DNA of 47,820 nt from a virus. A model generated the notes under the pieces. That model was given only the letters and a program-made list of their open reading frames with translations, did not search any database and had not been told where the DNA came from. Below are positions 31,700-47,053 of the stretch, piece after piece. The stretch lies in IMG/VR virus record IMGVR_UViG_3300042691_030610, positions 1 to 47,820 of that record. One strand, 5' to 3'. Position numbers and translations under genes: made by a program. Each line of letters opens with the position of its first letter. Position 1 is the stretch's first letter.

Positions 31700-32980
31700 A
31701 TGCCGTATATTTTAAATAAAACAAATGGGTCTATTGTTGCAGTAGTACAAGATGCTGCCTTAGATAAAACTACGGATCTAACTTTTTTAGGAAGAAACTA
31801 CGCAGGTTATGGTGAAGTTCAAAATGAAAATTTTTTAAAATTATTAGAAAACTTTTCCAATACAACTCCTCCTACAAAACCTATAGAAGGACAAGTTTGG
31901 TTTGATAGTAGAAATAAAAAAATAAATTTTTATGATAACTCTAATTGGAAAAGTATTGCTAATCTTGAAGTAAGTAAAACAAATCCGGCTGCAAACAAAA
32001 CTTTTGTAATTGGTGATTTTTGGTATAATAACGACGATTTACAATTATACGCCTATACTGGTTCAGAATTTTCTTTAATAGGACCTCCTTCCGGTGACGA
32101 TTTAAAAGCAGGGTGGAGAGGTTCTAGAGAGTATAGTGTTACAGACGGTTTAGATTCTCCAAAATATAATTTAAAGGCTGTGTTAACAGAAGCAGATGAA
32201 GTTATTGCCTTAGTATCTGCCGAATCATATACAGTATCCGATCCGTCAGGTGCTGAAAAAGAACCGACATTTCCAATTTTTGCATTTCAATCTGTTGTTA
32301 AAAAAGGAATTACACTAATAGGTTCTAATCCAGACACAGGAGTTTCGGAAAATAATGGAATATATTTTTGGGGATCTGCTGCTCATTCGTTGCTTTCAAA
32401 TACGGCAACATATGCAATATCTTCATCCGGCGTAACATTTACAAATAATACAAATACAAATTTTGCATATAATTTATCCTTTTTTAATGGAGCAAATTCT
32501 AATTCAACTTCATCTCTGTATATAGATAGAACAGGATTGACATATAACCCTGCTATAAAAACTTTAAAAACAAGTTATTTTGACGGAATAGCAACCGCTG
32601 CATATTATGCAGATTTAGCAGAACGATACGAATCCGATCAAATTTATGATTATGGTACCGTAGTAGCAATCGGAGGAAATAAAGAAATAACAGTAACATC
32701 AGTTCGCGCTGATACGGCTATTGCTGGTGTTATTTCTAAAAATCCTGCTTATATGATGAATGCGTCTGCTGGAAATAATGAAACGCATCCGTATATCGCT
32801 TTAAAAGGTAGAGTACAATGTAAAGTACTAGGACCGATAAAAAAAGGAAGTTTGCTAGTTTCTAGTAATAAGCCTGGGTATGCAGAAGAAATAAAATTAA
32901 ATGATCATCCTTCTGCTGTTATTGGTAAAGCACTTGAAGACTTTAACGGCGAATTAGGGATGATTGAAATTTTAGTTTAG
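31700..32980 (+). CDS. Tail fibre protein with N-terminal attachment module and C-terminal YADLAERY-type domain
   Basis: A 426-residue protein. Residues 20-90 carry the shared module (LGRNYAGYGEVQNENFLKLLE, shortened here; then IEGQVWFDSRNKKINFYDNSNW). From about residue 300 a conserved C-terminal domain begins with YADLAERYESD, continues GTVVAIGGNKEIT and GVISKNPAYMMN, and ends VIGKALEDFNGELGMIEILV. This domain is widespread at the ends of marine phage fibres and resembles peptidase G2-like chaperone/autoprocessing domains; cleavage activity is not shown. AAGGA precedes the ATG with proper spacing. It closes the plus-strand structural block; only four bases separate its stop from the convergent thyA stop. 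Confidence 0.7.
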   Translation: MPYILNKTNGSIVAVVQDAALDKTTDLTFLGRNYAGYGEVQNENFLKLLENFSNTTPPTKPIEGQVWFDSRNKKINFYDNSNWKSIANLEVSKTNPAANKTFVIGDFWYNNDDLQLYAYTGSEFSLIGPPSGDDLKAGWRGSREYSVTDGLDSPKYNLKAVLTEADEVIALVSAESYTVSDPSGAEKEPTFPIFAFQSVVKKGITLIGSNPDTGVSENNGIYFWGSAAHSLLSNTATYAISSSGVTFTNNTNTNFAYNLSFFNGANSNSTSSLYIDRTGLTYNPAIKTLKTSYFDGIATAAYYADLAERYESDQIYDYGTVVAIGGNKEITVTSVRADTAIAGVISKNPAYMMNASAGNNETHPYIALKGRVQCKVLGPIKKGSLLVSSNKPGYAEEIKLNDHPSAVIGKALEDFNGELGMIEILV

Positions 32981-32984
32981 TAAA

Positions 32985-33872
32985 TCACACAGCCATAGGA
33001 GCCTTAATAGAGTCGTGGCTGGTGTAATTTACAAGTGATATATCGTTCATAGTAAATTTTGTAATATCATCAATTGCCGAATTTAAATTTAGTGTTGGTA
33101 AATTTAATGGTTTTCTTGATAATTGTTCTTTAACTTGATCTAGATGATTTAAATATATATGAGCATCGCCTAGAGTTATTGTTAAATCTCCTACTTCAAA
33201 GTTACATACCTGCGCTAACATGTGTGTAAATAATGCGTATGATGCAATGTTAAAAGGCACTCCAAGAAACATATCTGCACTACGTTGATACATCTGACAA
33301 CTTAACTTATTATTTGAACTCACGTAAAATTGTGCCATCATGTGACAAGGAGGCAATGCCATTATATCAAGTTCACCTGGATTCCACGCTGTGATAATGT
33401 GTCTTCGGCTGTACGGGTCAGTTTTAAGACCGTCAACTAATTCAAGTAGTTGATCGTGATTTTGTAAAATAACTTTATTAATTCTTATTAGAGGTTTACG
33501 CCATCTACGCCATTGTACTCCGTAGACTCTACCTAAGTCACCTGGATGACGTTGTAGTTTTTTCTTAACCCAATATGGAGCAGTTGCATTGTCAGTCCAG
33601 ATAGTTTTTTTATCGCTATATCTTTCACCGTGTAAAATTTCTCTCAATCGATATTCATCACCACTGCCTTCGATAAACCATAGTAATTCACTTACTACAG
33701 CACGCCATGCAAGTTTTTTAGTAGTAATTGCTGGGAATCCTTGACTTAGATCAAATTTCATTTGCAAACCAAAAATACTTTTAGTACCGGTACTAGTACG
33801 ATCCGGGCGTTCGTCGCCGTTCTCTAAGATATTTTTTAGTGCATTAAGATAAGAGTATTCTGGATGAGTCAT
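32985..33872 (-). CDS. thyA: Thymidylate synthase ThyA
   Basis: Converts dUMP to dTMP using methylene-tetrahydrofolate, supplying thymidine for phage DNA. All landmarks are present in 295 residues: the N-terminal RTSTGTKSIFG, the active-site Cys176 in ALPPCHMMAQF, RRHIITAWNP, and QRSADMFLGVPFNIASYAL. The Asn in PFNIASY favours dUMP; phage dCMP hydroxymethylases usually carry Asp there, so a hydroxymethylase is unlikely. The start ATG overlaps the frd stop by four bases (ATGA), giving a coupled pair in which DHFR regenerates the folate that ThyA oxidises. It ends four bases from the convergent fibre gene. Confidence 0.96.
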   Translation of the reverse strand: MTHPEYSYLNALKNILENGDERPDRTSTGTKSIFGLQMKFDLSQGFPAITTKKLAWRAVVSELLWFIEGSGDEYRLREILHGERYSDKKTIWTDNATAPYWVKKKLQRHPGDLGRVYGVQWRRWRKPLIRINKVILQNHDQLLELVDGLKTDPYSRRHIITAWNPGELDIMALPPCHMMAQFYVSSNNKLSCQMYQRSADMFLGVPFNIASYALFTHMLAQVCNFEVGDLTITLGDAHIYLNHLDQVKEQLSRKPLNLPTLNLNSAIDDITKFTMNDISLVNYTSHDSIKAPMAV

Positions 33873-34363
33873 TTTGTATATTCTTTTATAGTATAATTAA
33901 CTGGGGTGCTATATTTTAACAGTTCTTTAACATTTTTAAAATTATTTTTGATGTAATTAGAATTAAAAAATTTATTGCAGTTATAATGTTCGTTTATTTC
34001 AGTTATATAAAATTTATCAATTTCGTTAAGGTAGATATTATATATTTCACTACCTCCTATAATAAAGATTTCTTTATCTATATATTCTAATTGACAAAAA
34101 TTTAATGCACTTGATGGATCGCTAAATGTATGATCTGCTCCGTTGTTTCCGGAATAATCATGAGTTCTTGATAAAACAATGTTAATTCGATTTGGTAAAG
34201 GTTTACAATTTAGACTTTTCCATGTTGTAGACCCCATAATTACGATATTATTAGTAGTTACATTTTTAAAAAAAGACATGTCACCCTTAAGGTGAGGCCA
34301 GGGCATTTGACCATTAAATCCAATGCCCTGGTTGCTATCTACAGCAACAATACCATTTATCAT
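33869..34363 (-). CDS. frd: Dihydrofolate reductase
   Basis: Reduces dihydrofolate to tetrahydrofolate with NADPH, restoring the cofactor used by ThyA. A 164-residue protein with the family features in order: INGIVAVDSNQGIGFNGQMP with WPHLKGDMSFFK, the NADPH-binding IVIMGSTTWKSL, NIVLSRTHDY, and EIFIIGGSEIYNIYL. Genes flank it with four-base ATGA overlaps on both sides, so it is the middle of a coupled unit. An inverted repeat (34298-34331) lies within the first 66 coding bases. Confidence 0.95.
   Translation of the reverse strand: MINGIVAVDSNQGIGFNGQMPWPHLKGDMSFFKNVTTNNIVIMGSTTWKSLNCKPLPNRINIVLSRTHDYSGNNGADHTFSDPSSALNFCQLEYIDKEIFIIGGSEIYNIYLNEIDKFYITEINEHYNCNKFFNSNYIKNNFKNVKELLKYSTPVNYTIKEYTK
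34298..34331. repeat. 10-bp inverted repeat in the 5' coding part of frd
   Basis: CCAGGGCATT (34298-34307) and AATGCCCTGG (34322-34331) are perfect reverse complements around a 14-base loop. The folded mRNA could slow or modulate frd translation, or the match may simply follow from the conserved DHFR residues. Confidence 0.6.
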
Positions 34364-34929
34364 TCCGCTTCTACTTTTTTTGTTTTTGACTTTGCTTTAG
34401 GAGGATCAATCTCGTCTGCTTCCTTACGTAGCCTTGCTGCTTCTTTATATAAAGCATCGGCACGTGATCGCATTTCAGAAGGAGTCAATGAAAATGTTTC
34501 GCTAGTATTACTTTTTTCTACAACTTTGCTTTCGGAAACTTCGGGAGTAGTAACAACATTAGTTGTATCATTTACCGTAATTCCTTTTTGTTTTGCAATC
34601 AAATCGTTTAGTTCATTTAATGGCAACTGTGTTTGACTGTTCGGAGTCATTAACACCATCGATGTAGGAACCTTTTTGATATGTCCATTTACATGCAAAT
34701 ATTGAAGTACATTGTTACCATCGGGGAATTTTCTTACAGCCAATAGTTCTGCCAATTCATTAGCCTCTTGACCAGATGGACCTTCGATAATTGACATCAA
34801 CGCATCGTGATGTGAATCGATTAATCCGTTAGTACCTACCACTAAGCAATTGTTAGGTTCGTTTGGTACTGTTCTGTAAAGAACAACAATTCTTGCAGAA
34901 TTGTTCTTCATTTTACCTACATGTTTCAT
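34360..34929 (-). CDS. Conserved phage protein of unknown function
   Basis: A 189-residue soluble protein not assigned to a family. Residues 1-110 look folded (ARIVVLYRTVPNEPNNCLVV, then DSHHDALMSIIEGPSGQEANE, LAVRKFPDGNNVLQYLHVNG). Residues 110-189 are low complexity, with Thr/Val/Ser followed by a charged helix (PSEMRSRADALYKEAARLRK) and a Lys/Ala-rich tail. AAGGAG lies well placed before the ATG. It sits upstream of frd in the same operon with an ATGA overlap. The DHFR and ThyA neighbours do not by themselves imply a metabolic role. Confidence 0.7.
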   Translation of the reverse strand: MKHVGKMKNNSARIVVLYRTVPNEPNNCLVVGTNGLIDSHHDALMSIIEGPSGQEANELAELLAVRKFPDGNNVLQYLHVNGHIKKVPTSMVLMTPNSQTQLPLNELNDLIAKQKGITVNDTTNVVTTPEVSESKVVEKSNTSETFSLTPSEMRSRADALYKEAARLRKEADEIDPPKAKSKTKKVEAE

Positions 34930-34939
34930 AGAAATCTCC

Positions 34940-35164
34940 TTATTTGGTTTCTTGTTGTGATTGTTGTTGTGCTGTAATTGCTGTTAAAAACGCACTTAAT
35001 TTATCATACACATTTCCAACCGCAGAAATTTCTGAAGCAGTAAATGTTCCTCTTTTAACAGCAACATCTACTAAAGACCTTAAATTGGCAAGATCCGTTA
35101 CAGTAAGTTCCGGAGGCTGTGTAGGCTGTGGTGCAGTTTGTGTGTTATTTTGTGTTTCATCCAT
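34940..35164 (-). CDS. Small conserved phage protein
   Basis: A 74-residue protein: a Gln/Pro/Thr-rich N-terminus (about 20 residues), then a predicted helical segment with LTVTDLANLRSLVDVAVKRG and FTASEISAVGNVYDKLSAFL, and a Gln-rich tail. Short proteins with this helical core occur in many T4-like marine phages; function unknown. It lies ten bases upstream of the next gene and directly after the 97-residue gene, with an AGGA site ahead of the ATG. Confidence 0.7.
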   Translation of the reverse strand: MDETQNNTQTAPQPTQPPELTVTDLANLRSLVDVAVKRGTFTASEISAVGNVYDKLSAFLTAITAQQQSQQETK

Positions 35165-35165
35165 T

Positions 35166-35459
35166 TTAGTATTCCTTTTTATTTTTGTGTAAAAGTGTGC
35201 AACCTAATGTTAGCATGGTCATTTCTCGCGGATCTTCTAATCCAATTTCTAATACTTGAATAAGTTTTTTATTCGAGTCTAACGAATATTTTGTTTTTAT
35301 TCCGTATCTACAGTTTAGATTATATTCGATCCAATGCTCTAACCTTTTAGTATCTATCTTATGGTCTATGCAAACTTTAGCAAAATGATTAGGTATAAAT
35401 GATAATTTTTTAACACCTAATACATTTAACGCACTTACTTCATTTTTACATAGAGCCAT
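35166..35459 (-). CDS. Small protein of unknown function
   Basis: A 97-residue protein without recognised motifs. It contains LSFIPNHFAKVCIDHKIDTK, RLEHWIEYNLNCRYGIKTKY and REMTMLTLGCTLLHKN, suggesting a small mixed alpha/beta fold. A candidate late box on the same strand (35473-35480) lies just before it, and AGG is 7-9 bases before the ATG. Confidence 0.6.
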   Translation of the reverse strand: MALCKNEVSALNVLGVKKLSFIPNHFAKVCIDHKIDTKRLEHWIEYNLNCRYGIKTKYSLDSNKKLIQVLEIGLEDPREMTMLTLGCTLLHKNKKEY

Positions 35460-35471
35460 AAAATACCTACT

Positions 35472-36728
35472 TTATTTATAATAGGCAACCTGGCCGAATG
35501 GCGGAATTATGGAATCGTTTCCGTGAATAATAAACAAAGTATCGCAGTACTCTTCGTCTCCCCACGACCCACATGGATATCCATCTGTAAACATGATGAA
35601 TTTTTTTGGTTGAAGATCTTCATGCTTCATATAACGCCAGTTAGCATCAAAATCGGTACCACCACCGCCTTTCGGTTCGTATTCCATAATATCGTCAGCA
35701 GTATCACCGGTATATCGAACATAGTTATATACTTCAGTATCGAAGCACCACAGATCAAGATTAAAATCTACATATTCGTCCATAATACCTTTAACTTCAC
35801 TTAGAAAGTCTTTAGCCATTACGTCTGAAATACTACCACTCATATCAATTGCTACACTAACATCAATAGTTTCTTCATTCATCATGCCGGGCAAAATTGC
35901 ACCACTGTGTTGGCTTTTACGATTCGGCCGGCTAAAACTAAAATTACTTTTCAGAATACTTTGAATATTCATTCGAAGCAATTGTCGCCAATCCATTTTA
36001 GGCTCAGTAAGATCCTTAATCATACGCTGAATACCTGCAGGTACTTTTCCTGCACCTGCACTTTGAGCAGCGGCAATCATTGCTTCTTTAATTTCGTCTC
36101 GAATCTTTTTACGATCTTCGGGGCTTAACTTAGGGCGGCCCTTGCCGTCTTTCTCCTCACCACTGCCGTCGCCGTTACCGTTTTCGCCGTCGCCGTCGAG
36201 GTGTTCATCGAGAAGTTCTCCTAGATCGGCAATACTAATTTTTTCAGCATTATCGTATAGGTCTTGATAAATTTCTTCGTAACTTTTACCACGATACTTG
36301 TCGTTTTGAAAAATTTGAATAAAATTAGGAACAGCACCAATTCTCTCGTCTTTTAAGATTTGATTAACGGCATAGTCAGCGGCAATGTTTGACAACTGTG
36401 GATCACGACTTTCACGACGGCCCATATGATCAAAAATATTATGTAGGACTTCGTGAGCGAATCCGAACTCACATTCTTTAGGAGTAAGTTTATTAACAAA
36501 GCCGTTATTGTAATAAAAATTACGACCGTCGGTTGCTAAAGTAGCACACCAATCGCTAGCGTCGATCATTTTCATCCGAGTAGCAAGATTTCCAAAAAAT
36601 GGATGACGTAGTAGTAGACCTACTCTGGCTGTAATTAGTTTGTCGAGAATTTTTGCTTTCTCAGCAGAGTTAAATTCTTTTCCTGCCCAATCTTGTTTTT
36701 TAGACTTTTCTTGTTTCATTACAGCCAT
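35472..36728 (-). CDS. VWA-domain protein with HExxH metallopeptidase-like motif (DUF2201 type)
   Basis: A 418-residue protein. The N-terminal domain contains HEVLHNIFDH at residues 92-101, an HExxH zinc motif with a possible third ligand. A flexible Asp/Gly/Asn/Glu-rich linker lies near residues 165-205. The C-terminal von Willebrand A domain has the full metal-ion-dependent adhesion site: DMSGS at 295-299, Thr358 in GGTDF, and Asp382 in FTDG. Such proteins pair with MoxR ATPases, which remodel partner complexes; the MoxR gene lies directly upstream. The target in phage infection is unknown. The ATG at 36728 has AGGAG six bases upstream. The gene has its own promoter (36753-36781) and a terminator separates it from MoxR. 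G+C looks higher than in the structural block. Confidence 0.85.
   Translation of the reverse strand: MAVMKQEKSKKQDWAGKEFNSAEKAKILDKLITARVGLLLRHPFFGNLATRMKMIDASDWCATLATDGRNFYYNNGFVNKLTPKECEFGFAHEVLHNIFDHMGRRESRDPQLSNIAADYAVNQILKDERIGAVPNFIQIFQNDKYRGKSYEEIYQDLYDNAEKISIADLGELLDEHLDGDGENGNGDGSGEEKDGKGRPKLSPEDRKKIRDEIKEAMIAAAQSAGAGKVPAGIQRMIKDLTEPKMDWRQLLRMNIQSILKSNFSFSRPNRKSQHSGAILPGMMNEETIDVSVAIDMSGSISDVMAKDFLSEVKGIMDEYVDFNLDLWCFDTEVYNYVRYTGDTADDIMEYEPKGGGGTDFDANWRYMKHEDLQPKKFIMFTDGYPCGSWGDEEYCDTLFIIHGNDSIIPPFGQVAYYK
35473..35480 (-). promoter_or_regulatory. Possible late promoter, exact TATAAATA on the minus strand
   Basis: TATAAATA, read on the minus strand, begins next to the stop codon of the VWA gene and lies 13 bases before the ATG at 35459. 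An exact eight-base match in AT-rich DNA can arise by chance, and the leader would be very short. Confidence 0.35.
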
Positions 36729-36752
36729 AATAAACTCCTGTTGTGATATACA

Positions 36753-36781
36753 ATTATATATTCTTTTTAATCAAAATGCAA
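36753..36781 (-). promoter_or_regulatory. Sigma70-like promoter for the VWA gene
   Basis: TTGCAT (36776-36781) and TATAAT (36753-36758) on the minus strand, 17-base spacer. It begins two bases past the terminator of the MoxR gene, so the VWA gene can be transcribed separately. Confidence 0.7.
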
Positions 36782-36783
36782 GT

Positions 36784-36803
36784 AAAAAAGGCCCTTACGG
36801 GCC
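36784..36803 (-). terminator. Rho-independent terminator after the MoxR gene
   Basis: On the minus strand GGCCC, loop GTAA, GGGCC is followed by six T. It starts five bases after the MoxR stop codon. Confidence 0.85.
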
Positions 36804-36807
36804 CATT

Positions 36808-37893
36808 TTAACCTTCCATTGCACTGATAATGTACTTACCGTACTTATCATGGAATCGATCAAAGTTCTTCAACTTTGAGGCATCAAACGGCAATTGATA
36901 ATTAGTCAACGCAGTCTTTGCACCCATAACAACAATCTCAGTCGGGAAGTTATCCATCATGAAGCCGAAGAAGTTATCTGCCATAGCATCCCAAGACTTG
37001 ACCTTCTTACGATCTGCTTCTTGCAGTTCATAGCACAGGCTAATAGTCAATGAATACATGGCTGAAATTTCTTTAATTTCGCACTTTGCAACCTTGCCAG
37101 AAAGAATGTCTTCTGGCTTAGGCATCTGCTTGGCAACCTTACGGTGAGCCATAAACTTAACAGCAAGGCCTTCACCTACTGCACCTGACACTAGATCAGT
37201 TAGTGTGCTTTCGCTAACATCATCTTCTTCTAGAAGTTCGCTAACAAATGACCATGAACGGGGAGTTGCAAAACTCTTGCTAGCACTCTTAGGATCAAAA
37301 TCATAGAGGTCTTGTTTAGCAAAACCGACATAACCTACAACTTGCTCGTGAACGCGATTCTTAACAGCCCATGAATGCCAATCTTCGTAATCTACACGAA
37401 GTTCGAGGTGTAGGAAACGATTTGCAAGCGGAGCAGGCATACGATATGTAACGCCCTTATCGCTTTCACGGTTGCCAGCAGCAACAATACTAACCTTAGG
37501 AGGTAGTTGATAAGCACCTACCCGACGATTTAGAATTAGTTGATAGGCAGCAGCCTGTGTAGCAGGTGCAGCAGAATTAAGTTCGTCAAGAAACAGAATA
37601 CTGTCATCGTCCGGATCAGACGGAAATTCCATCGGAGGAGCCCATTCCATAGAGCCTTTACTAGCATTATAAAATGGAATACCTTTAATATCAGTTGGTT
37701 CCCAAAGAGAAAGGCGAACGTCAATAACACGCCGACCTTGCTCTTCACCAAGTTGCTTAACAATATCACTTTTACCAATTCCGGGAGGACCCCACATAAA
37801 AACTGGACGATTCTTTTTCATGCACTTACGAATAGCAGTCTTTGCCTCGTTAGGGCTAACAGTACGATTTGCAGTCATCTTATCAGCAGCCAT
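36808..37893 (-). CDS. MoxR-type AAA+ ATPase
   Basis: A 361-residue ATPase. Walker A is GPPGIGKS (35-42), Walker B FLDELN (about 101-106), sensor 1 is the Asn near residue 141 in VAAGNRESD, and RMPAPLANRFLHLEL carries the arginine-finger region. It belongs to the MoxR/dynein-like AAA+ branch whose members load or activate VWA-domain partners; such a partner is the next gene. The C-terminal third is helical and not further assigned. A strong promoter (37947-37975) precedes it and a terminator follows it. Codon choice and G+C are visibly different from the AT-rich structural block. Confidence 0.9.
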   Translation of the reverse strand: MAADKMTANRTVSPNEAKTAIRKCMKKNRPVFMWGPPGIGKSDIVKQLGEEQGRRVIDVRLSLWEPTDIKGIPFYNASKGSMEWAPPMEFPSDPDDDSILFLDELNSAAPATQAAAYQLILNRRVGAYQLPPKVSIVAAGNRESDKGVTYRMPAPLANRFLHLELRVDYEDWHSWAVKNRVHEQVVGYVGFAKQDLYDFDPKSASKSFATPRSWSFVSELLEEDDVSESTLTDLVSGAVGEGLAVKFMAHRKVAKQMPKPEDILSGKVAKCEIKEISAMYSLTISLCYELQEADRKKVKSWDAMADNFFGFMMDNFPTEIVVMGAKTALTNYQLPFDASKLKNFDRFHDKYGKYIISAMEG

Positions 37894-37946
37894 ATATCGC
37901 TCTCTTTCTTTAAGTTGATTTAAAATTTGCTTGCCTAAGTGTTAAT

Positions 37947-37975
37947 AGTATAAACTCAAACATCTATTTTGTCAA
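37947..37975 (-). promoter_or_regulatory. Sigma70-like promoter for the MoxR gene
   Basis: TTGACA (37970-37975) and TATACT (37947-37952) on the minus strand with a 17-base spacer. The -35 box is inside the last codons of the upstream gene (stop at 37956). Confidence 0.8.
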
Positions 37976-38360
37976 GTTGCTTTAAAGAGAATTTCTGATG
38001 TGCATGAAAGTATTTTTCTATATTTCCAGAAAATAATACTAATTGAACTGCTGGTTTTTCGCTAAAGAAGAAAATTTTTTTATTTGTAATATAAAATGGG
38101 CAATCAAACGTGTTATCTAGCCAAAGAATAAATCTGTTGTCGACGTAAAATTCGCTAGTTTCAAGTTTTACTTCGTAAAATTTTATATCTGCTTTACTTA
38201 AAATCTCAAAACCGCGAGGAGTTAACCGTAATCCTCCGTGATTTTTTTGTCTCGGATTTTGCCAAATTGCGTGAATCCAATCTTTAAATGATTTATCTGT
38301 AGGCGCTTTAAGATTTAATTTTTCGATAACGTATTGAGTAATTTTAGTTTTTTGGTTCAT
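37956..38360 (-). CDS. Conserved phage protein of unknown function
   Basis: A 134-residue protein. It carries KDWIHAIWQNPRQKNHGGLRLTPRG (split over residues 25-50), then FILWLDNTFDCPFYITNKKI and SEKPAVQLVLFSGNIEKYF, a pattern seen in hypothetical proteins of T4-like marine phages. No catalytic motif is evident. It overlaps the upstream gene by 17 bases, suggesting coupled translation, and its 3' end contains the MoxR promoter. Confidence 0.7.
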   Translation of the reverse strand: MNQKTKITQYVIEKLNLKAPTDKSFKDWIHAIWQNPRQKNHGGLRLTPRGFEILSKADIKFYEVKLETSEFYVDNRFILWLDNTFDCPFYITNKKIFFFSEKPAVQLVLFSGNIEKYFHAHQKFSLKQLDKIDV

Positions 38361-38643
38361 CTATTACTTTTTCGCCGTGTGTTAATTTATATACAGAAAA
38401 ATCAGTTGTATTAAATAGTTTGTTTAATTTTTCAGCAAGATTAAATGCATGTCCGGAATTTGAAAAACTAACTTTTTTATATTTAGGACCAATTTCTTGA
38501 TTAATTAAACTTTCGGTTTTAAGATTAATCGGCTTATCTTTAAAAAATACCGCCCAAATTGCATCTGATTCTAAAATTTGATCTGCCTTAAAGTTTTTTT
38601 TGTTTGTTATTTCTAATAATATCTTCGGTCTTGGGCGGCTCAT
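38344..38643 (-). CDS. Conserved phage protein of unknown function
   Basis: A 99-residue basic protein beginning MSRPRPKILLEITNKKNFKA, with ESDAIWAVFFKDKPINLKTE and GPKYKKVSFSNSGHAFNLAE; the arrangement occurs in hypothetical proteins of T4-like marine phages. The frame extends to a TTG at 38658, but GGAG lies nine bases before the ATG at 38643, which is therefore preferred. It overlaps the next gene by 17 bases. Confidence 0.7.
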   Translation of the reverse strand: MSRPRPKILLEITNKKNFKADQILESDAIWAVFFKDKPINLKTESLINQEIGPKYKKVSFSNSGHAFNLAEKLNKLFNTTDFSVYKLTHGEKVIDEPKN

Positions 38644-38669
38644 ATACGCTTTCTCCAATAGTGCGTATG

Positions 38670-38677
38670 TATTTATT
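38670..38677 (-). promoter_or_regulatory. Candidate late promoter, one mismatch
   Basis: AATAAATA on the minus strand, 26 bases before the ATG at 38643, in the gap 38644-38684. The spacing is like that of the candidate in front of gp6. Confidence 0.35.
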
Positions 38678-38684
38678 TGAGTAT

Positions 38685-38897
38685 TTAAAACTTTCCACCA
38701 TCCATTTTAATTTCAATTTTTTCAGAAACTTTATCTAATTCTGCTTTTGTTAATAGTTTTGATAATAAAACACTTATACTTGCTTGTAAGTCTGTTATTT
38801 CTTGAATCGAAAGAGTTAAGTTTTTTTGATTGCTTCTAATTGCAATTCTAGATTTTTCTAAAAAATTTTCAATTGGTATTAAATTAAGTTGTTTCAT
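38685..38897 (-). CDS. Small protein of unknown function
   Basis: A 70-residue protein, mostly predicted helix: IPIENFLEKSRIAIRSNQ, then LSIQEITDLQASISVLLSKL and LTKAELDKVSEKIEI. The heptad-like spacing of Leu/Ile suggests a helical or coiled-coil dimer. It overlaps the upstream gene by 14 bases. Confidence 0.6.
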   Translation of the reverse strand: MKQLNLIPIENFLEKSRIAIRSNQKNLTLSIQEITDLQASISVLLSKLLTKAELDKVSEKIEIKMDGGKF

Positions 38898-39372
38898 CTT
38901 TACTAACTGTATTTAATTTGTTTTTCATTTCTTGTTCGGTCTTAAACGGGCCGTAAAATTTGTAACGTTCTAACGTAATTAATTTTGGACAAAAACTTTT
39001 AACCCATCCTTTTCTGAATTTAATTACATAATATCCTGCACAATATTGACTTTTACTTTTGCTACTTTTTGCATATAATGGAAGTTTTTTCTTAATATTA
39101 TATACAGAACTGTAGGGTTTAGAATTGCAAGGAAAATCATACACTTTTAATTCGGTAATAGAATTTACTTTTTTAAAAGTAGTCGAGGGCAATGATATTA
39201 AATCAACTCCTAATTCTTTCTTAACTTCGTCAGGATTTTCTAAAAAGAATTTATAACCTTTTTTAAAGAAATTAAATCCTTTTTTATTTTTAGAAATACT
39301 TCCAATTTTTTCTTTATCTCTTTTGAGAATCCATTCTTTATTTGGAATTAAAGTTTTGCTTATTACAGTCAT
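38884..39372 (-). CDS. Lysine-rich protein of unknown function
   Basis: A 162-residue, strongly basic protein with many Lys and Phe/Tyr. Its core includes SKSKSQYCAGYYVIKFRKGW and YKFYGPFKTEQEMKNKLNTV. The latter resembles a short repeat found near the ends of some phage hypothetical proteins, but no family is assigned. The charge would allow nucleic-acid binding. It follows the rnh gene with a four-base overlap, so a link to replication is possible but unproven. Confidence 0.6.
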   Translation of the reverse strand: MTVISKTLIPNKEWILKRDKEKIGSISKNKKGFNFFKKGYKFFLENPDEVKKELGVDLISLPSTTFKKVNSITELKVYDFPCNSKPYSSVYNIKKKLPLYAKSSKSKSQYCAGYYVIKFRKGWVKSFCPKLITLERYKFYGPFKTEQEMKNKLNTVSKDETT

Positions 39373-40361
39373 ATATTATATTTTGAGTTTAAGGGTTCTG
39401 CATAACTTTGCACTTGTTCACTTATTTTTTGCAAGTCGTATTCTGCACAAAATTTTAAAAGTCGTATTCCTACTTGGGGTACATTTTTGTTTTTGTGATC
39501 GATATGTGTAACAACTTCTTTAATAATTTGCTGAACATCATCGGGCTGGAAGTTAAGATCGCACAGTAATCTATTACGATTATAATCGTCAATTACTCTA
39601 TGTTCTACACCTTCATGGTCTACCCATTTTTGTAACATTAAATTATTCCAATTGTATCCGCGTGTTGTTCGATCAGCAAATGCTTCTCTTAGTCCTACTT
39701 TATTCTTAGTACCTTTTTCTCTAACACCGGGGTATGCGCTAAAAATATTATCGCTAGTGTCACCTCTCATGCACTTTTCAAATAAAAGCCATTCTGGATC
39801 AGGAGGTAATTTAACTTGTTTTGTTTTTTTATCAACAACAGGTTTTTTTCTTTCGTCAAAATATCCTTCGTGAGAGATAGTAACACCTAACACACCATTA
39901 TATTGTTTAACGTTATTAGAAATAAGTTGAGCAAAATCACCGTCGGTTGATATGATAACATGATTATCGTTAGGGTGATGTTTAATCCATCCTGCAATTA
40001 GATCGTCTGCCTCAAGGCGAGGATGATGCAAAACTGTAGAATTGGTTTTGTTAATTATAAAGTCTTTAAATTGATCAAAAGTTTCCCAGAATGTTTTATC
40101 TTCTTCTGCTTCTCTAGGAGAAAGTGCTGCTCGAGCATCCGATCGTTGTTTTTTGTAAGGAGCATAGTAATCTTTGCGCCAACTACGACCTTCGAGACAA
40201 AACACCACATGATCGCCATTAAAATCTTTCCATGCTTTTCTAATACTACTTAGAATAGTATGAAGACTCATTCCTACTTTATCTTCTAGACTTCCACGTA
40301 CTACGTGGCGTGCTCTAAAAAAAGTATTTGCAGTATCGACAAGAATATAAGTTTTAGTCAT
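39369..40361 (-). CDS. rnh: RNase H-like flap 5'-3' exonuclease (T4 rnh type)
   Basis: A 330-residue FEN1/5'-3' exonuclease family protein; T4 RNase H (305 residues) removes RNA primers and flaps from lagging-strand DNA. Metal-binding motifs in order: VDTANTFF near the N-terminus, LEGRSWRKDYYAPYKKQR, RLEADDLIAGW, STDGDFAQLIS, and RGDTSDNIFSAYPGV. The second motif has Glu where the family usually has Asp (T4 has AFDNSKSGYWRRD). The start overlaps the upstream stop as TAATG. Confidence 0.88.
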   Translation of the reverse strand: MTKTYILVDTANTFFRARHVVRGSLEDKVGMSLHTILSSIRKAWKDFNGDHVVFCLEGRSWRKDYYAPYKKQRSDARAALSPREAEEDKTFWETFDQFKDFIINKTNSTVLHHPRLEADDLIAGWIKHHPNDNHVIISTDGDFAQLISNNVKQYNGVLGVTISHEGYFDERKKPVVDKKTKQVKLPPDPEWLLFEKCMRGDTSDNIFSAYPGVREKGTKNKVGLREAFADRTTRGYNWNNLMLQKWVDHEGVEHRVIDDYNRNRLLCDLNFQPDDVQQIIKEVVTHIDHKNKNVPQVGIRLLKFCAEYDLQKISEQVQSYAEPLNSKYNI

Positions 40362-40786
40362 TAACTGATCTCTGTTTTTCCATCATCTCGTAGAGCCTTA
40401 TTAACAAAGCCACTACCTCTACGTTCCATGTCAATTCCATTTTCTTTTCCTATGTTCCTACATAGATCTGAAAACCATGAATCAACGATTTCTTCTTCTG
40501 AGGATCCTTTGTAACCTGTTTTAACTAATTCTAAAACAAAATACTCATTCCAGTCAAGTTCAAAAAATCCATTACGGATATTTTCTTTATTGACGTGAGT
40601 TTCGAGAACTGCTACCCAAGGTTCTTTACGCTCAGTGGCTAATTCTTTTGGGGTTAATTTTGCAAGACGTTCTTTTTCTTTTGCTGCATCTGCTGCTGCT
40701 TCTGCTTCAATTTTTGATTTAGTTGCTTCGGCAACTTCATTTTCGATCTTATCGAGCCCAAATAACTTTTTTATAAATTGGTTCAT
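40361..40786 (-). CDS. Conserved phage protein with N-terminal helix
   Basis: A 141-residue protein. Residues 1-50 are a charged Ala/Glu/Lys helix (ENEVAEATKSKIEAEAAADA), probably a coiled coil. Residues 52-141 form a conserved domain with EPWVAVLETHVNKENIRNGF, FELDWNEYFVLELVKTGY and EEEIVDSWFSDLCRNIG; this kind of protein is common in T4-like marine phages, function unknown. It shares one base with the start of rnh (TAATG), so the two are coupled. Confidence 0.7.
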   Translation of the reverse strand: MNQFIKKLFGLDKIENEVAEATKSKIEAEAAADAAKEKERLAKLTPKELATERKEPWVAVLETHVNKENIRNGFFELDWNEYFVLELVKTGYKGSSEEEIVDSWFSDLCRNIGKENGIDMERRGSGFVNKALRDDGKTEIS

Positions 40787-40987
40787 TTATACTTTTCCCC
40801 ATTGTATTTTATTCCAAATACGTTCATTTATATAATAGCAAACCATATACAATATATTGAGAGCAATACTATCTCTAAATGCAGTGAACGGATCTAATCC
40901 CGACATAACAAATATTATACAAGTTAGAAGTATTATAAAAATTCTATAAATTACGGTTTTAACTACACTACGTAATGCAGTTTCCAT
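40787..40987 (-). CDS. Small membrane protein, DUF2061 type
   Basis: A 66-residue protein starting METALRSVVKTVIYRIFIIL. Two hydrophobic segments (about 12-32 and 42-58) and a C-terminal ERIWNKIQWGK match DUF2061, small inner-membrane proteins of unknown function with a conserved R-W-N-x-I-x-W-G end. The frame also allows an ATG at 40999, but the ATG overlapping the queE stop (TAATG) is preferred. Confidence 0.75.
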   Translation of the reverse strand: METALRSVVKTVIYRIFIILLTCIIFVMSGLDPFTAFRDSIALNILYMVCYYINERIWNKIQWGKV

Positions 40988-41841
40988 TAAGTGCCCCATT
41001 CATTCTTAAATAGTGGCACTTGAAGTCGATCACTATAACGTAATCCATGTTTCATTGCAAAGTTAGCAACTGCTCTATTATTTAGAGCATAAACACTTTC
41101 AACACCGCCGACTGGCATTAAATAGCATGGACCTTTAAATCCGGCATCTCTATATATCTTTAGAGTTTCGATAGCCTCGTTAGCATCTTCTTCTATAGCA
41201 ATAACAAATTTAAGATAAGTGTATCCGACTTCTTGATATTCACACACAACTTCAGGCTTAATAGCATCTTCTCTAGTTTCGCCTGAACAACTTAGTTTAG
41301 CACTAACTGAAAAGGTTAATGAGTTATAACCACGACGTTCAATACCCCAATGCCAAAGATAATCTTTAAACTCTTTAGTTAACTTTTGAGTACCGTTAGT
41401 TTCAAAAGTAATCTCTTTGAGATCCTTCATACAAGGCTGTTCAAGCAAGTCAGGATAAGCACGTTGCCAACCAAGTAGAGGTTCACCTCCAGTAATTACG
41501 AGATGTTCGTCTCGCCATTCTTGATACGGTAGTGTTTCGACAATGCTTTTCGCAAGGCCATCGACTTCAACCACAGGTGAAAGGTCTTTGAACCGAGGAT
41601 CCCAACTAGCATAAGAATCGCAACCGGTATGAACAAGAGGTAAATCTCTATACTGTTTAAACTCTGCGACACTATTTGCGATAACATTTCGTTCATTTGA
41701 TTTTTCTCCTTTATGCATTCCAAAGCCATCACAGGTAAAATTACAACCGAATGTTCTTAAAAACACACTAGGAACGCCCATATAGCGACCTTCACCTTGA
41801 ATAGAATAAAATAATTCGCTAATTTTAATTTTACTAGACAT
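40987..41841 (-). CDS. queE: 7-carboxy-7-deazaguanine synthase QueE
   Basis: A radical SAM enzyme that converts 6-carboxytetrahydropterin to 7-carboxy-7-deazaguanine, a step to preQ0 used in tRNA queuosine or in 7-deazaguanine DNA modification. In 284 residues: ISELFYSIQGEGRYMG (the QueE N-terminal signature), C33-NFT-C37, C74 in TGCDSYASW, ITGGEPLLGW for SAM, and ETNGTQ. The CxxxCxxC cluster motif is split: the third Cys is displaced by about 34 residues (F40 in its place, C74 restored in the CDS context). The frame extends to a TTG at 41892, but that TTG is the -35 box of a promoter; the ATG at 41841 has AGGAAC just upstream. Confidence 0.9.
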   Translation of the reverse strand: MSSKIKISELFYSIQGEGRYMGVPSVFLRTFGCNFTCDGFGMHKGEKSNERNVIANSVAEFKQYRDLPLVHTGCDSYASWDPRFKDLSPVVEVDGLAKSIVETLPYQEWRDEHLVITGGEPLLGWQRAYPDLLEQPCMKDLKEITFETNGTQKLTKEFKDYLWHWGIERRGYNSLTFSVSAKLSCSGETREDAIKPEVVCEYQEVGYTYLKFVIAIEEDANEAIETLKIYRDAGFKGPCYLMPVGGVESVYALNNRAVANFAMKHGLRYSDRLQVPLFKNEWGT

Positions 41842-41854
41842 AAATGTTCCTATG

Positions 41855-41862
41855 AATAAATA
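41855..41862 (+). promoter_or_regulatory. Candidate late promoter for the radical SAM gene
   Basis: AATAAATA (7 of 8 to TATAAATA) on the plus strand, 33 bases before the ATG at 41896, in the divergent interval with queE. Confidence 0.35.
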
Positions 41863-41863
41863 T

Positions 41864-41892
41864 AGTATATTAATATTATTTAGGTTTGTCAA
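41864..41892 (-). promoter_or_regulatory. Sigma70-like promoter for queE
   Basis: TTGACA (41887-41892) and TATACT (41864-41869) on the minus strand with a 17-base spacer. The predicted start leaves a leader of about 16 bases including the AGGAAC ribosome site. Confidence 0.8.
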
Positions 41893-41895
41893 GTA

Positions 41896-42759
41896 ATGAA
41901 TAAATTAAATACAGAAATTTTTTGGACTATAACTAATCATTGTAAATCTGAGTGTTCATATTGTCCAAGCCGATTCCGTAATGGTGACGAACCTAAACAC
42001 ATATCTGAATACATAAAAATTGCTCAACTATTAATCGATAATTTTAAAAAACAAAATAGAATTATAAATTGGATATTTAATGGCGGTGAATTACTTGATA
42101 TGTTTGATTTTCCTGAATTACTAAAATTTTGTAAAACATCTCTAGGTAATATAGACCTTACAACAAATGGTGGAAAATTATGGTTAGATTGGTGGGCAAT
42201 TGAGCCTTATATAGATACTTTAAATTTATCATACCATTATTGGCAGAATCCTAATTTAATAAAATTTATTATACAAACTTTTCAAAAAAATAATAAAAAT
42301 GTCAACATAACAGTACCGATTAGACCTAGTAATTATTTTGATAGCGATATGAATAGAGCATTAGAAATAACAAATGAATTTAACATTAATGTAAATAAAA
42401 CTCTTTTATTTAAAGACGGTGCAAGCGAATTAGGATACCTTGATTATACAGAAGAACAGTTTGAAATTGTGTTAGGTAAAGAATGGGTTGAAAATAATCT
42501 CAGAAATCCTCCTAAAACCTATAAAGAAATTCAAGAAATAAAAGTTGCAACTAATCCTAGTTTTACAGGGATATTATGTAATGTCGGAGTTGAAAAATTA
42601 CTAATAGATCCATCTGGCTGGGTACAAGGAAGTTCATGTAATACTTTACACTTAGGAAATATTTGGCATGACGGTTTTCGACTCCCTGATAGACCTAGTG
42701 CATGTAAAATGTTAGCCTGTATCGATCAGCAAGATCAAAAAATTACAAAATTTATTTAA
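41896..42759 (+). CDS. Radical SAM protein with auxiliary-cluster-like C-terminus, unknown substrate
   Basis: A 287-residue radical SAM protein. The SAM-cluster motif is C16-KSE-C20-SY-C23 in NHCKSECSYC, with FNGGELLDM as the glycine-rich SAM motif. The C-terminus has four further cysteines (C228, C248, C270, C275) around LLIDPSGWVQGSSC and CKMLACIDQQDQ, resembling SPASM/twitch auxiliary Fe-S domains of peptide- and protein-modifying enzymes. It is the only plus-strand gene in the minus-strand cluster, divergent from queE and convergent with the HIT gene, whose 3' end it overlaps by 8 bases. No precursor peptide is apparent nearby. Function is not assigned. Confidence 0.8.
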   Translation: MNKLNTEIFWTITNHCKSECSYCPSRFRNGDEPKHISEYIKIAQLLIDNFKKQNRIINWIFNGGELLDMFDFPELLKFCKTSLGNIDLTTNGGKLWLDWWAIEPYIDTLNLSYHYWQNPNLIKFIIQTFQKNNKNVNITVPIRPSNYFDSDMNRALEITNEFNINVNKTLLFKDGASELGYLDYTEEQFEIVLGKEWVENNLRNPPKTYKEIQEIKVATNPSFTGILCNVGVEKLLIDPSGWVQGSSCNTLHLGNIWHDGFRLPDRPSACKMLACIDQQDQKITKFI

Positions 42760-42769
42760 TTTTGTAATT
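42741..42769. terminator. Perfect 12-bp hairpin at convergent gene ends
   Basis: AATTACAAAATT (42741-42752) and AATTTTGTAATT (42758-42769) are exact reverse complements with a five-base loop. On the minus strand the stem is followed by TTTTGATC, so it looks like a terminator for the HIT operon; on the plus strand the T-run is weaker. It lies within the last codons of both convergent genes. Confidence 0.65.
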
Positions 42770-43147
42770 ACCTTTTCCTGGAATAACATTTCTAACACCG
42801 CCAGTTGGATCTTCACAATCCCCTGAACGTCTAGGTATTAAGTGTACATGAGGATACATAATAGTTTGTCCAGCAGTTTTGCCAAAGTTTAAACCTATAT
42901 TAAACCCTTCGCATTTTCCTTCTTCTACTAGCATTAGTCCCTGTGTATAAGCATCATAGAATGCGTCTTGTATAACAGCAGGAGTGTTATATTTAGGAAC
43001 GAAAAGAAGATGCCCCTCTGTAACTGGATACTTATCTTTGTATACAGCAACATGGAAATCTTCTCTTACTAGATTATCCCAAGGTGCACCACTTTCTGCT
43101 AATGTATCTTCCATTTTCATTTTAGATTTTTTAAATGAAAACATCAT
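42752..43147 (-). CDS. HIT-family nucleotide hydrolase/transferase
   Basis: A 131-residue HIT protein. These enzymes hydrolyse or transfer nucleoside-phosphate groups (such as dinucleoside polyphosphates). Landmarks: [20 protein letters not shown] with [21 protein letters not shown], and the triad region [16 protein letters not shown]. Family sequences have His-x-His-x-His; here the first position is Tyr and the other two His, including the nucleophile, remain. The start overlaps the GMP reductase 3' end by 17 bases. Confidence 0.88.
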
Positions 43148-44153
43148 TAATTTGCCGGTTTACACGGATGAATGTAGTGCATTTACTTAATTGTTTTAGT
43201 GTTTGTGCACCAACATAAGTACATGTACTACGCAGCCCTCCTAATGTATCAAGTACAGTTTTTTCTACAGGGCCGCGATATGGAACCTCGACAGTTCGAC
43301 CTTCGCTACTACGATAACTTGCTACACCACCGTGATGTTTTTCCATTGCAGTATCTGAACTCATTCCGTAAAAACATACAGTGTTGTTTTCATGATTTAC
43401 AATACCGCCGCCTTCGTTGTGACCAGCAAACATTCCGCCTATCATAACGAAGTCCGCACCAGCACCAAAAGCCTTAGCAACATCACCAGGACAAGTACAT
43501 CCACCGTCAGCCATAATATGACCACCAAGACCGTGAGCAGCATCGGCACATTCAATAATAGCACTAAGTTGTGGGTAGCCCACACCAGTTTGAACACGAG
43601 TAGTGCAAACGCTCCCAGGCCCAATACCAACTTTAACAATATCTGCACCACGTAAAATTAACTCCTGAGTCATATCTGCGGTAACAACATTACCTGCAAT
43701 AATAGTTTTATTTGGAAATTCTTTTCTTACTTTTGCCACAAAATCTCCAAAATTTTCTGAATAACCGTTTGCTACATCGATACAAATAAATTGTAATTTA
43801 GGTAATGCTGCTACGATAAATTTTAATCGTTCAAAATCTTTATTACTTGTGCCTGTACTAACTGCTATAAATTCGGAAAGTAAATTGTCTCGTTCTTCTA
43901 CCCACTGTTCAAGAGTATATGATTTAATTGTACATGTTAACAGTTTGTGTTTTTGTAGTTCTTTAGCCATAGAAAAAGTACCTACTCCATCCATATTAGC
44001 AGCAACAAGTGGAATGCCTGTCCACGTATTTTTGCTCCATTTGAAGTTGTAGGTACGTTCTAGAGAAACTTCTTTTCTACTTGAAAGTGTGCTACGTTTT
44101 GGTCTAATTAATACATCTTTAAAATCTAATTTAATATCTTCTTCTATAATCAT
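43131..44153 (-). CDS. guaC: GMP reductase GuaC
   Basis: Reduces GMP to IMP with NADPH, redirecting guanine nucleotides. A 340-residue protein (E. coli GuaC 347) with no CBS domains. [18 protein letters not shown] near the start, catalytic Cys183 in [28 protein letters not shown], and [11 protein letters not shown] with [13 protein letters not shown]. The short length and the start favour GuaC over IMP dehydrogenase. Downstream of the cupin-like gene with a four-base overlap, it is in one operon with it and with HIT. Confidence 0.9.
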
Positions 44154-44617
44154 TTGATTGCTTTACTTTTTAAATAAATGTTATTGTGTATCCACTTATC
44201 CTGTCCTTCACTTGATACAAGAAATCCCCATTCTCTTTTTTGAGGTCCTGGCATAAACATAGTCCAACAAGTTACAGACGGATCAAGTTCGATCCTATGA
44301 TAACTAGTTGCACTACAGGTGCGAAAATGTCCCGGGCCACGCCAATGCTTAGTTTCACTGATTTTCTTACCATTATTAGAAAATTCTGGAACCCATTCCC
44401 AGTATCCTCCTTTAAGGATAATAGTTGCGTAAGGCCACGGATGATCATGAACATCATCTGGATCTGATCTTAAAAATTTATGAATAAAAATATTAAATGG
44501 AAAATGTTTACGATCTTTTAAAAAAACATAATATCTTTCCAAATAAGGTTCATTATTTTGACGATCCATAATAACTCTATGGCGCCCTAATTTTTTAAGA
44601 AGTTTTAGTAGAAACAT
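44150..44617 (-). CDS. Cupin-like protein
   Basis: A 155-residue protein. [20 protein letters not shown] with YWEWVPEF resembles the cupin metal-binding motif 1 (H-x-H ... E), and [17 protein letters not shown] a second-motif His. It fits the small beta-barrel cupin-type proteins of marine phages, role unknown. It overlaps guaC by four bases. Confidence 0.6.
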
Positions 44618-44626
44618 GTTTATATT

Positions 44627-45727
44627 TTACATTAAATTTTTTAAAAGTCTATCACAACTAAAGAAATAATTAGTTAGATCTTGTGCTTGTTTATGTACAT
44701 ATGAAACATGCTTGTCATAATTTTCCATCATAGTAGTAATTTGATGACAAACATCTTGACGATGAGTTTCATACTTTTCCCACGATTCTGTCCACTCTGA
44801 AGGATATTTAAATCCTTCATAATACATTTCTTTATATGAAAGTCTATTAGGAACCATAGGAATAGCGTTTACTAGTGCTCCTTCATAACAGCCGATTCCT
44901 AGTGTTTCTTGCAAACTACAACTAAACACAATTTTAGATTGTCCTAGTAATGTATGATATTGCTCTTTAGCGAGAGATTGATCTTGACATACAATAAATT
45001 CATATTGTGGAAGATGTTTAGCAATGTCTCTAAAAATTTCAACTTGCTTTTCTGGAGCAATACGATGTGGAAATAGTACAAGATTTCTTTTTGGAAGATT
45101 AGTATACGGAGCAAGGACATTTTCCATGTATTCCATAGGCCAACCAGTGCGAACAATCTTTTCAAAATTTCCACCAAGTATTTCGTCTAAGTCATCTTCT
45201 AGCCACGGATTAACCATTGGAGAATCGTTAAGAAGATTTCTTACAAACATTTCGATATGAAAGTCTGTAGCAAAATAATTGTAATCAATTGCATGGAAAA
45301 AACTTTGCTCGGCAAATCTTACCCATGGTGCATTGCCAATTAGCCTGCCAAGGAAGTCATGAGGATCATAACTTCCGGCATGCCACAGAGCATGAATCTT
45401 GACAGGGATGCCAAGAAGTTCGCTCATGTATTTTAGATTGATAATGCCCGGGTGCCAAGCGTCAGTAAAAAGAAAATGGTCGCCAGCAGAAATGCGTCCA
45501 TCGCAAAATAGTCTACCCATTGTTTCAACTTGAGCAGACTTGTAGATATTAGTGCCACCAAAATTAAGAAAGGCCCCTGGAGTAGTAGCAGACGGAATAT
45601 CCGTAGGCCCGTCAACAATTTGAACATTATGTCCAGCCTTTTTTAATAGTTCAGGAACATGAGTTTTCCATTGACCTGTATAGCGTGTTTCCACGCTTTC
45701 CAGGTCTACGAGAAATATGTTACTCAT
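44627..45727 (-). CDS. GT-B glycosyltransferase (GT4-like)
   Basis: A 366-residue glycosyltransferase. The C-terminal half has the retaining GT4-like features: FPHRIAPEKQVEIFRDIA, and the E-x7-E motif ETLGIGCYEGALVNAIPMVP (Glu274 and Glu282, numbered from the ATG). The N-terminal half (LVDLESVETRYTG, FTDAWHPGIINLKYMSELLG) fits the other Rossmann lobe. The frame extends to TTG at 45733, but the ATG at 45727 follows the upstream stop by two bases and is chosen. The acceptor is unknown; DNA glucosylation (as T4) or host-surface or glycan modification are alternatives. It is downstream of QueD-like genes, so modified DNA is an interesting possibility. Confidence 0.8.
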   Translation of the reverse strand: MSNIFLVDLESVETRYTGQWKTHVPELLKKAGHNVQIVDGPTDIPSATTPGAFLNFGGTNIYKSAQVETMGRLFCDGRISAGDHFLFTDAWHPGIINLKYMSELLGIPVKIHALWHAGSYDPHDFLGRLIGNAPWVRFAEQSFFHAIDYNYFATDFHIEMFVRNLLNDSPMVNPWLEDDLDEILGGNFEKIVRTGWPMEYMENVLAPYTNLPKRNLVLFPHRIAPEKQVEIFRDIAKHLPQYEFIVCQDQSLAKEQYHTLLGQSKIVFSCSLQETLGIGCYEGALVNAIPMVPNRLSYKEMYYEGFKYPSEWTESWEKYETHRQDVCHQITTMMENYDKHVSYVHKQAQDLTNYFFSCDRLLKNLM

Positions 45728-45729
45728 AA

Positions 45730-45936
45730 TCAATGTTGATCACGATGAGCGTTACGTGCAGCCTTTGATCGCTCACGTTGCCACTCCTTGTATTCTTTAC
45801 TCTTGTAAAGATCCTTGGGGTTAAAAGGAAGCAGGTTAAACCTGCAATGGTCTAGCCAGTCTTCGAGATCGTCAAAGATCTTAGAAACTTCGGGCTTCAT
45901 AACAAGGGTTTTTTGAATGTAATTAGGAATTGCCAT
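45730..45936 (-). CDS. Small conserved phage protein
   Basis: A 68-residue protein beginning MAIPNYIQKTLVMKPEVSKI, with DDLEDWLDHCRFNLLPFNPK and a basic C-terminus (KEWQRERSKAARNAHRDQH). It is seen as a hypothetical protein in T4-like marine phages; function unknown. It ends two bases before the glycosyltransferase ATG. Confidence 0.65.
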   Translation of the reverse strand: MAIPNYIQKTLVMKPEVSKIFDDLEDWLDHCRFNLLPFNPKDLYKSKEYKEWQRERSKAARNAHRDQH

Positions 45937-45954
45937 TTTATTTGATTAAGTTAG

Positions 45955-47047: not shown

Positions 47048-47053
47048 ACAAAA

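Follow-up and report, generated by a model that had tools for sequence, protein, structure and literature searches.

In the MoxR/VWA systems CbbQO, NorQD, RavA-ViaA, and midasin, the client is bound at one of its acidic residues by the MIDAS and is then remodelled by the AAA+ ring. The clients of NorQ-NorD and CbbQ-CbbO are NO reductase and rubisco, respectively. MIDAS mutants of CbbO were reported to lose the substrate (PMC4660213). In phages, gp24 and gp25 of N4 were annotated as an ATPase and a vWFA protein in 2009 (PMC2784036), and Iyer et al. (2021) described MoxR together with a metallopeptidase-vWA protein in jumbo phages and proposed a role in virion assembly (PMC7824862). No tested function of the pair in phages of bacteria was found in the literature searched, and no entry on the essentiality of N4 gp24/gp25 was found in the text of the CRISPRi-ART paper.

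The window, i.e., the whole 47,820-base IMG/VR virus fragment analyzed here, carries a plus-strand tail/baseplate block and a row of genes on the minus strand, some for nucleotide metabolism and others unknown, in which a MoxR gene is followed by a VWA gene (Table 1). The tail block includes a 4524-aa ORF (11993-25567, plus strand) without a Pfam domain. Within positions 40987-45733 of the row, QueE (minus strand) and a lone plus-strand radical-SAM gene (41896-42759) are accompanied by IMPDH/GMP reductase (43131-44153) and a cupin 'cysteine dioxygenase' (44150-44617), possibly constituting a purine or deazapurine pathway.

Table 1. Positions of the features discussed, in window coordinates
Feature	Position (nt)	Strand	Residues, motif, or location	Basis
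Tail/baseplate block	1266-32980	+		
Thymidylate synthase and dihydrofolate reductase	32985..34363	-	End of the gene row of the pair	PF00303, PF00186, synteny
Small genes downstream of the pair	34360..35459	-	97 aa, 74 aa (phrog_13789), 189 aa (phrog_15894)	
189-aa protein	34360-34929	-		PHROG match
74-aa protein	34940-35164	-		PHROG match
Zincin-VWA (DUF2201) protein	35472..36728	-	418 aa, phrog_1314	Pfam, PHROG, alignments, AlphaFold2
MIDAS of the VWA protein	35832-35846	-	D295/S297/S299; plus T358, D382	
HEVLH of the VWA protein	36441-36455	-	Residues 92-96	
Promoter-like site	36753..36781	-	TTGCAT-17-TATAAT (9/12), between terminator and VWA start	
Intrinsic terminator	36789..36804	-	GGGCCC-GTAA-GGGCCT then TTTTT, directly 3' of MoxR stop codon	
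MoxR-type AAA+ ATPase	36808..37893	-	361 aa, phrog_1297	Pfam, PHROG, invariant columns, closest solved folds
Walker A of MoxR	37768-37791	-	GPPGIGKS, residues 35-42	
Other ATPase motifs of MoxR			Walker B D103-E104; sensor-1 N141; Arg finger R159; sensor-2 R212	
Sigma-70 promoter	37947..37975	-	Near-consensus TTGACA-17-TATACT, ~54 nt upstream of MoxR start	

MoxR exceeded the curated Pfam cut-offs for both AAA_3 (2.2e-7; 31.3 bits vs. a cut-off of 27) and AAA_5 (1e-6), and was matched to phrog_1297 with an E value of 1.5e-103. A search against NCBIfam gave no hits. Its motif set, comprising GPPGIGKS, FLDE, AAGNR, NRF, and TPRSW, was invariant or nearly so in the alignments, and Walker A and B, sensor 1, the Arg finger, and sensor 2 were all intact. 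In one close-family contig (L036/L096), Walker A was found as GIGKAD (GKA for GKS, Ser → Ala), which may reflect either an error in sequencing or an ATPase of reduced activity. The nearest solved sequence in the PDB was midasin (E 7e-12), and a Foldseek search with the AlphaFold2 model returned NorQ, a component of the NorQ-NorD(VWA) complex, and CbbQ as the top PDB folds, with low TM-scores. In this model, which like that of the VWA protein was of moderate confidence, strands 73-76 and 81-84 were situated where the beta-hairpin insert of the helix-2-insert clade would be expected, between strand 2 and the Walker B strand, with a pLDDT of ~60 over part of it.

The VWA protein was shown to carry a DUF2201_N metallopeptidase domain (PF13203; E 2.6e-43, 149 bits vs. 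a cut-off of 23.2) followed by a DUF2201 VWA domain (PF09967; 5e-14, 52.9 bits vs. 26.4), and matched phrog_1314 with an E value of 1.1e-108. Its motifs HEVLH, AAD, DMSGS, GGGGTDF, and FTDG were likewise invariant or nearly so, and the MIDAS was a perfect DxSxS...T...D, formed by DMSGS, T358, and D382. D118, invariant in the alignments, is a candidate third zinc ligand, and H101 was not universal. Sequence searches identified no solved relatives, and the model (pLDDT 75.5) matched PDB VWA domains including the midasin MIDAS domain, again with low TM-scores (Foldseek). The ORFs, the Pfam domains, and the alignments were thereby in good agreement with the earlier note, which had described a MoxR and VWA/HExxH pair of the remodelling type with intact motifs. 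The label 'HNH endonuclease' attached to phrog_1314 in PHROG and RefSeq was rejected, since Pfam gave only DUF2201_N and DUF2201 and no HNH domain; judging from these domains, the tag is a probable database misannotation. Membership in RavA-ViaA or CobS-CobT was also rejected, the partner matching DUF2201 families only.

Of 142 members in a set made up mostly of close relatives, 141 retained the HExxH, as did 21 of 22 divergent members, among them those of N4, S-TIM5, Thermus phiFa, and Bacillus phage G. The sole exception among the divergent members was Agrobacterium phage Atu_ph07, the member that the 2021 description itself cites, whose VWA protein (ASV44728.2; L005, 9941-11230; an identical copy lies in the IMG/VR record L384) has HQILH with an intact MIDAS, which in the alignment is a natural loss of the catalytic Glu by replacement with Gln. 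Inactive motifs in relatives, which the earlier note named as a refutation if found in both proteins, were thus encountered only at single points, as here in Atu_ph07. Because Atu_ph07 has HQxxH, peptidase activity is not obligatory, and proteolysis cannot be essential to the function there; proteolysis by the VWA protein is probably an auxiliary and dispensable activity.

Among 50,697 phage records, 704 were matched by VWA and 806 by MoxR, comprising RaK2-like, PA5oct-like, and Atu_ph07-like jumbo phages, N4-like podoviruses, rV5-like phages, and cyanophages, and hundreds of relatives were found on environmental virus contigs. MoxR was followed by VWA on the same strand within less than 300 nt in 146 of 155 loci. 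The recurring order in the window family was queE-g141-exonuclease-g162-g70-g104-g134-MoxR-VWA-g97-g74-g189-(DHFR)-thyA, of which the stretch MoxR-VWA-small genes-thyA was common to 121Q, RaK2, CBB, and GAP32, and queE/exonuclease/g104-MoxR-VWA was common to the window family and PA5oct. The pair was homologous and syntenic with those of Atu_ph07, PA5oct, Phosso, and 121Q, and related contigs reach 383 kb with a gp23-type major capsid protein (MCP). In PA5oct (L004, 9163-11924) and phiTE (L008, 9250-9762), homing or HNH endonuclease genes lie between MoxR and VWA, suggesting that an endonuclease has inserted between two genes that are neighbors elsewhere. Also codon-optimized in 121Q is the 189-aa gene, which turns up again close to the pair in RaK2-like phages as well as in PA5oct and Atu_ph07. 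The 'Anti-sigma factor' gene preceding VWA in rV5_ev146 was tried as MoxR and rejected, as it has no AAA motifs. Bacterial genome collections yielded five loci only; the two closest were in metagenome-assembled genomes and are possibly phage contigs. Across five relatives, the dN of MoxR was the lowest of the row in four and near-lowest in the fifth (L032), and its dS was the lowest or among the lowest, while the dS of VWA was saturated like that of the neighbors. By these estimates, purifying selection within the row is strongest on MoxR.

Codon usage of the pair was compared with that of the rest of the window. The departure of G+C and codon use from the structural block, asserted in the earlier note, was statistically confirmed (z = 24.8 for MoxR and 12.4 for VWA), with GC3 values of 0.33 and 0.31, respectively, vs. 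0.13-0.19 in the structural block. Rare Ile, Arg, Leu, and Gly codons accounted for 1 of 79 in MoxR and 15 of 111 in VWA vs. 1897 of 3615 in the other window genes (Fisher p 1e-23 and 3e-17). ATA (0/16), AGA (0/17), and TTA (0/26) were absent from MoxR, which favors CGT, GGT, ACT, GTT, and ATT. At its fourfold sites, 58% of codons were T-ending and only 8% G-ending, so that the shift is not simply 'more G+C'; read from these codons, the deviation of MoxR is a pattern of translational selection and not of GC-rich foreign DNA. The note's 'different ancestry' was not supported. Recent acquisition of foreign genes with donor-like codon use would account for the outstanding GC and GC3 of the pair; however, it was refuted by the T-ending fourfold codons, by syntenic orthologues with the same high GC3 in essentially all relatives, and by the saturated dS of VWA.

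A rare-codon index, by which genes were ranked over whole contigs or genomes, placed MoxR first of 26 genes in the window, at 2/92, 2/66, and 1/40 in window-family relatives, 1/228 in 121Q (0 of 117 codons rare), 2/176 in PA5oct, 2/241 in the genome G019, and 5/229 in Atu_ph07 (a partial sample). In eight ranked jumbo or jumbo-related sets, the MCP, where present, ranked 1-22 and VWA 2-10. Several further top ranks in 121Q and Atu_ph07 went to products known to be abundant, namely tail tube, UvsX, NrdB, and a Clp-like ATPase. Lower and mostly unremarkable ranks were obtained for thyA and for the exonuclease, apart from the exonuclease of G001 (sixth of 92) and that of G008 (fifth of 66). Combining one value per lineage gave p ~4e-6 for MoxR and ~4e-4 for VWA, the lineages being homologous and the values hence not fully independent. 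Codon optimization was modest in N4 and phiTE (MoxR 7/38 and 11/107; VWA 28/38 and 42/107), and given this weak effect, extreme abundance does not extend to every member of the family.

Transcription signals were assessed as consensus matches, from which the timing of expression is deduced. The window contained four exact sigma-70-type sites vs. 0.24 expected, preceding the late sigma factor gene, MoxR, QueE, and a 175-aa ORF, and a scan of the window placed none in the plus-strand structural block. For MoxR, 120 of 141 relatives had a site scoring at least 11/12 no more than 110 nt away (0.6 expected); the corresponding counts were 41 of 126 for VWA (0.6 expected; 66 of 126 at a score of at least 10/12, 4.6 expected) and 35 of 89 for QueE (0.4 expected), while tail-fibre genes had almost none. 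The MoxR terminator has the most G-C pairs and heads the list of terminator-like sites for 32900-47820; a terminator-like hairpin follows MoxR in 117 of 165 relatives, and the phiTE record annotates terminators on either side of MoxR. No strong sigma-70 box was detected upstream of MoxR in PA5oct, Atu_ph07, Phosso, or CBB (scores 8-9 of 12). A T4-type late promoter TATAAATA was tried and found to be of no use, with 2 sites vs. 13 expected by chance. Based on these matches, MoxR and VWA in the window family are probably separate, strong units of the host-RNA-polymerase type, unlike the structural block. The other explanation offered in the note, a distinct expression class, was accordingly strongly supported by the rare-codon ranks, promoters, and terminators. 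The 175-aa ORF (46520-47047, minus strand), which has no family match, is preceded by a perfect TTGACA-17-TATAAT promoter (47082-47054) and ranks second in the window for avoidance of rare codons (4/39); from these features, its product is predicted to be another abundant early protein.

The strong early-type promoter would also fit a host-takeover gene in a phage-borne anti-defence or defence module, and MoxR-VWA pairs are the cores of bacterial conflict systems (PMC7159879). Nevertheless, PADLOC gave no hit, the bpMoxR profile scored 20.4 bits, below its cut-off of 27, and no partner gene of the VMAP, beta-propeller, or FtsH kind was recognized. The bpMoxR/VMAP ternary conflict system was rejected on that score and on the lack of a third VMAP/beta-propeller component in the neighborhood. 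Furthermore, the pair is near-constant and the most conserved part of the row rather than a patchy accessory, so that the anti-defence role listed as a candidate in the earlier note found no positive evidence and is regarded as improbable. A somewhat better, albeit still doubtful, case can be made for a metal-cofactor or activity chaperone of a phage enzyme in the manner of NorQD and CobST, with ribonucleotide reductase or the thymidylate or deazapurine pathway as the client. The recurrence of thyA/ThyX, DHFR, dCTP deaminase, QueE, and DNA polymerase genes nearby, the modelled likeness to NorQ and CbbQ, which are cofactor/activity chaperones, and a weak match of MoxR to the CobS-like phrog_249 (E 9e-7) all speak for it; however, small amounts of such a chaperone normally suffice, as opposed to MCP-like amounts, and the gene neighbors vary, with no single co-occurring client enzyme shown.

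Virion proteomes bear on the published proposal of Iyer et al. (2021), for which Acidianus two-tailed virus p618/p892 provides a precedent (PMC7824862), namely that the pair folds or inserts structural proteins while the zincin trims them. In the PA5oct record, MoxR but not VWA carries an ESI-MS/MS mark. The 'ATPase' gp265c (49.52 kDa) in Table 1 of phAPEC6 was identified via 121Q, by molecular mass and neighboring genes, as the counterpart of gene 563 (MoxR, 49.51 kDa), and no 54-kDa VWA entry stands at its place in that table; a 25-kDa homologue of the 189-aa protein, matched by mass, was detected in phAPEC6 virions with one peptide. Neither MoxR nor VWA is in the virion table of CBB, and the pair is absent from the main text on the RaK2 structural proteome. 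The detection of MoxR and the 189-aa downstream protein in virion preparations is in favor of assembly, as are the MCP-level codon optimization of MoxR and the position of the pair after tail sheath, head-completion, or other structural genes in 121Q, RaK2, CBB, and GAP32. On the other hand, VWA is missing from the virion proteomes of PA5oct, phAPEC6, and CBB, and abundant proteins are likely to co-purify in such preparations. Since the phAPEC6 list also holds thymidylate synthase, a RecA-like protein, and SSB, the detection of MoxR is cautiously read as co-purified abundance; it agrees with high abundance in PA5oct and phAPEC6, and is no proof of a structural role. Assembly is further opposed by the host-type promoter that the window family, in contrast to its structural block, has before MoxR, by the position of the N4 pair in the plus-strand early/middle region, far from the late minus-strand virion genes, by the DNA polymerase, RNA ligase, and glutaredoxin genes around the pair in Atu_ph07 and Phosso, and by the catalytic Glu missing in Atu_ph07. 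Meanwhile, a chaperone for assembly need not be encoded by a late gene, T4 gp31 being an example, and early timing alone leaves virion assembly a serious rival, which we hold to be possible but tentative.

We give a probability of roughly 55% to the reading in which the pair is a phage remodelling machine of the NorQD/CbbQO/midasin type acting on an abundant intracellular target. By analogy, MoxR would form an ATP-driven hexameric ring, on which the VWA protein would dock while gripping an acidic target residue via the MIDAS metal, and the zincin domain may clip the target or merely hold it. Production of MoxR would begin early in infection and be very high, with somewhat less VWA, and these inferred amounts make an abundant complex inside the cell the probable target. 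The codon and promoter evidence suggests a stoichiometric task with an early start, from which we infer that the abundant AAA+/MIDAS machine works before or during replication. The gene context, with nucleotide metabolism, DNA polymerase, and the N4 early/middle region, favors an intracellular target over assembly. As our first guess, held at slightly better than even odds, the target would belong to the host or phage replication and nucleotide machinery; virion parts are the second and clearly less probable guess. A more specific version of the remodelling machine, which we put forward only tentatively, would be an early host-takeover/replication machine made at capsid-protein scale, which stoichiometrically remodels one abundant cellular complex and uses the zincin as a dispensable clipper. 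From the promoter, terminator, and codon data, MoxR is predicted to be expressed from a host-type promoter and, virion proteins aside, to rank among the most abundant proteins during infection; this prediction is testable in PA5oct or 121Q, and the predicted abundance makes a pull-down feasible.

The search for the pair in other phages, called for in the earlier note, revealed it in hundreds of records with syntenic neighbors, and the window pair is a fresh member of an already described kind of gene pair. As in the pairs of Iyer et al. (2021), adjacent genes for MoxR and an N-terminal metallopeptidase-vWA protein were found in a T4-like jumbo phage lineage. The group 2.2 jumbo-phage pair of Atu_ph07 (ASV44729.1/ASV44728.2) belongs to the same families, in the same order and with the same DUF2201_N zincin-VWA fusion, but has HQILH where the window protein has HExxH; the available text gives no expression class or transcription-unit structure for the pair (PMC7824862). 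What is new here is the expression class, the exclusion of a recent foreign origin, the probable misnaming, and the natural variant without the catalytic Glu. N4 gp24/gp25 and the Schitoviridae homologues are likewise an adjacent MoxR ATPase and HExxH/MIDAS protein, whereas the N4 pair lacks extreme codon optimization, has a Walker A beginning with SSPGMGKS, and is carried by a podovirus. The Acidianus two-tailed virus p618/p892 is also a viral MoxR and VWA pair, ORF892 being a weak fold match (rank 50), but it has no peptidase domain and belongs to an archaeal virus with extracellular tail development. NorQ-NorD and CbbQ-CbbO combine a MoxR ring with a MIDAS-VWA adaptor, as is predicted for the window pair, and provide the closest solved folds to the MoxR model, while their NorD and CbbO partners have no DUF2201_N zincin and their sequences are very distant from the window pair. 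Midasin/Rea1, closest to MoxR in sequence in the PDB and with its MIDAS domain among the VWA fold matches, differs as one giant chain with six AAA modules serving ribosome biogenesis. If the host-takeover version holds, which we consider less probable than the general remodelling role, the pair would be the viral equivalent of rubisco activase or midasin and not a virion-assembly chaperone.
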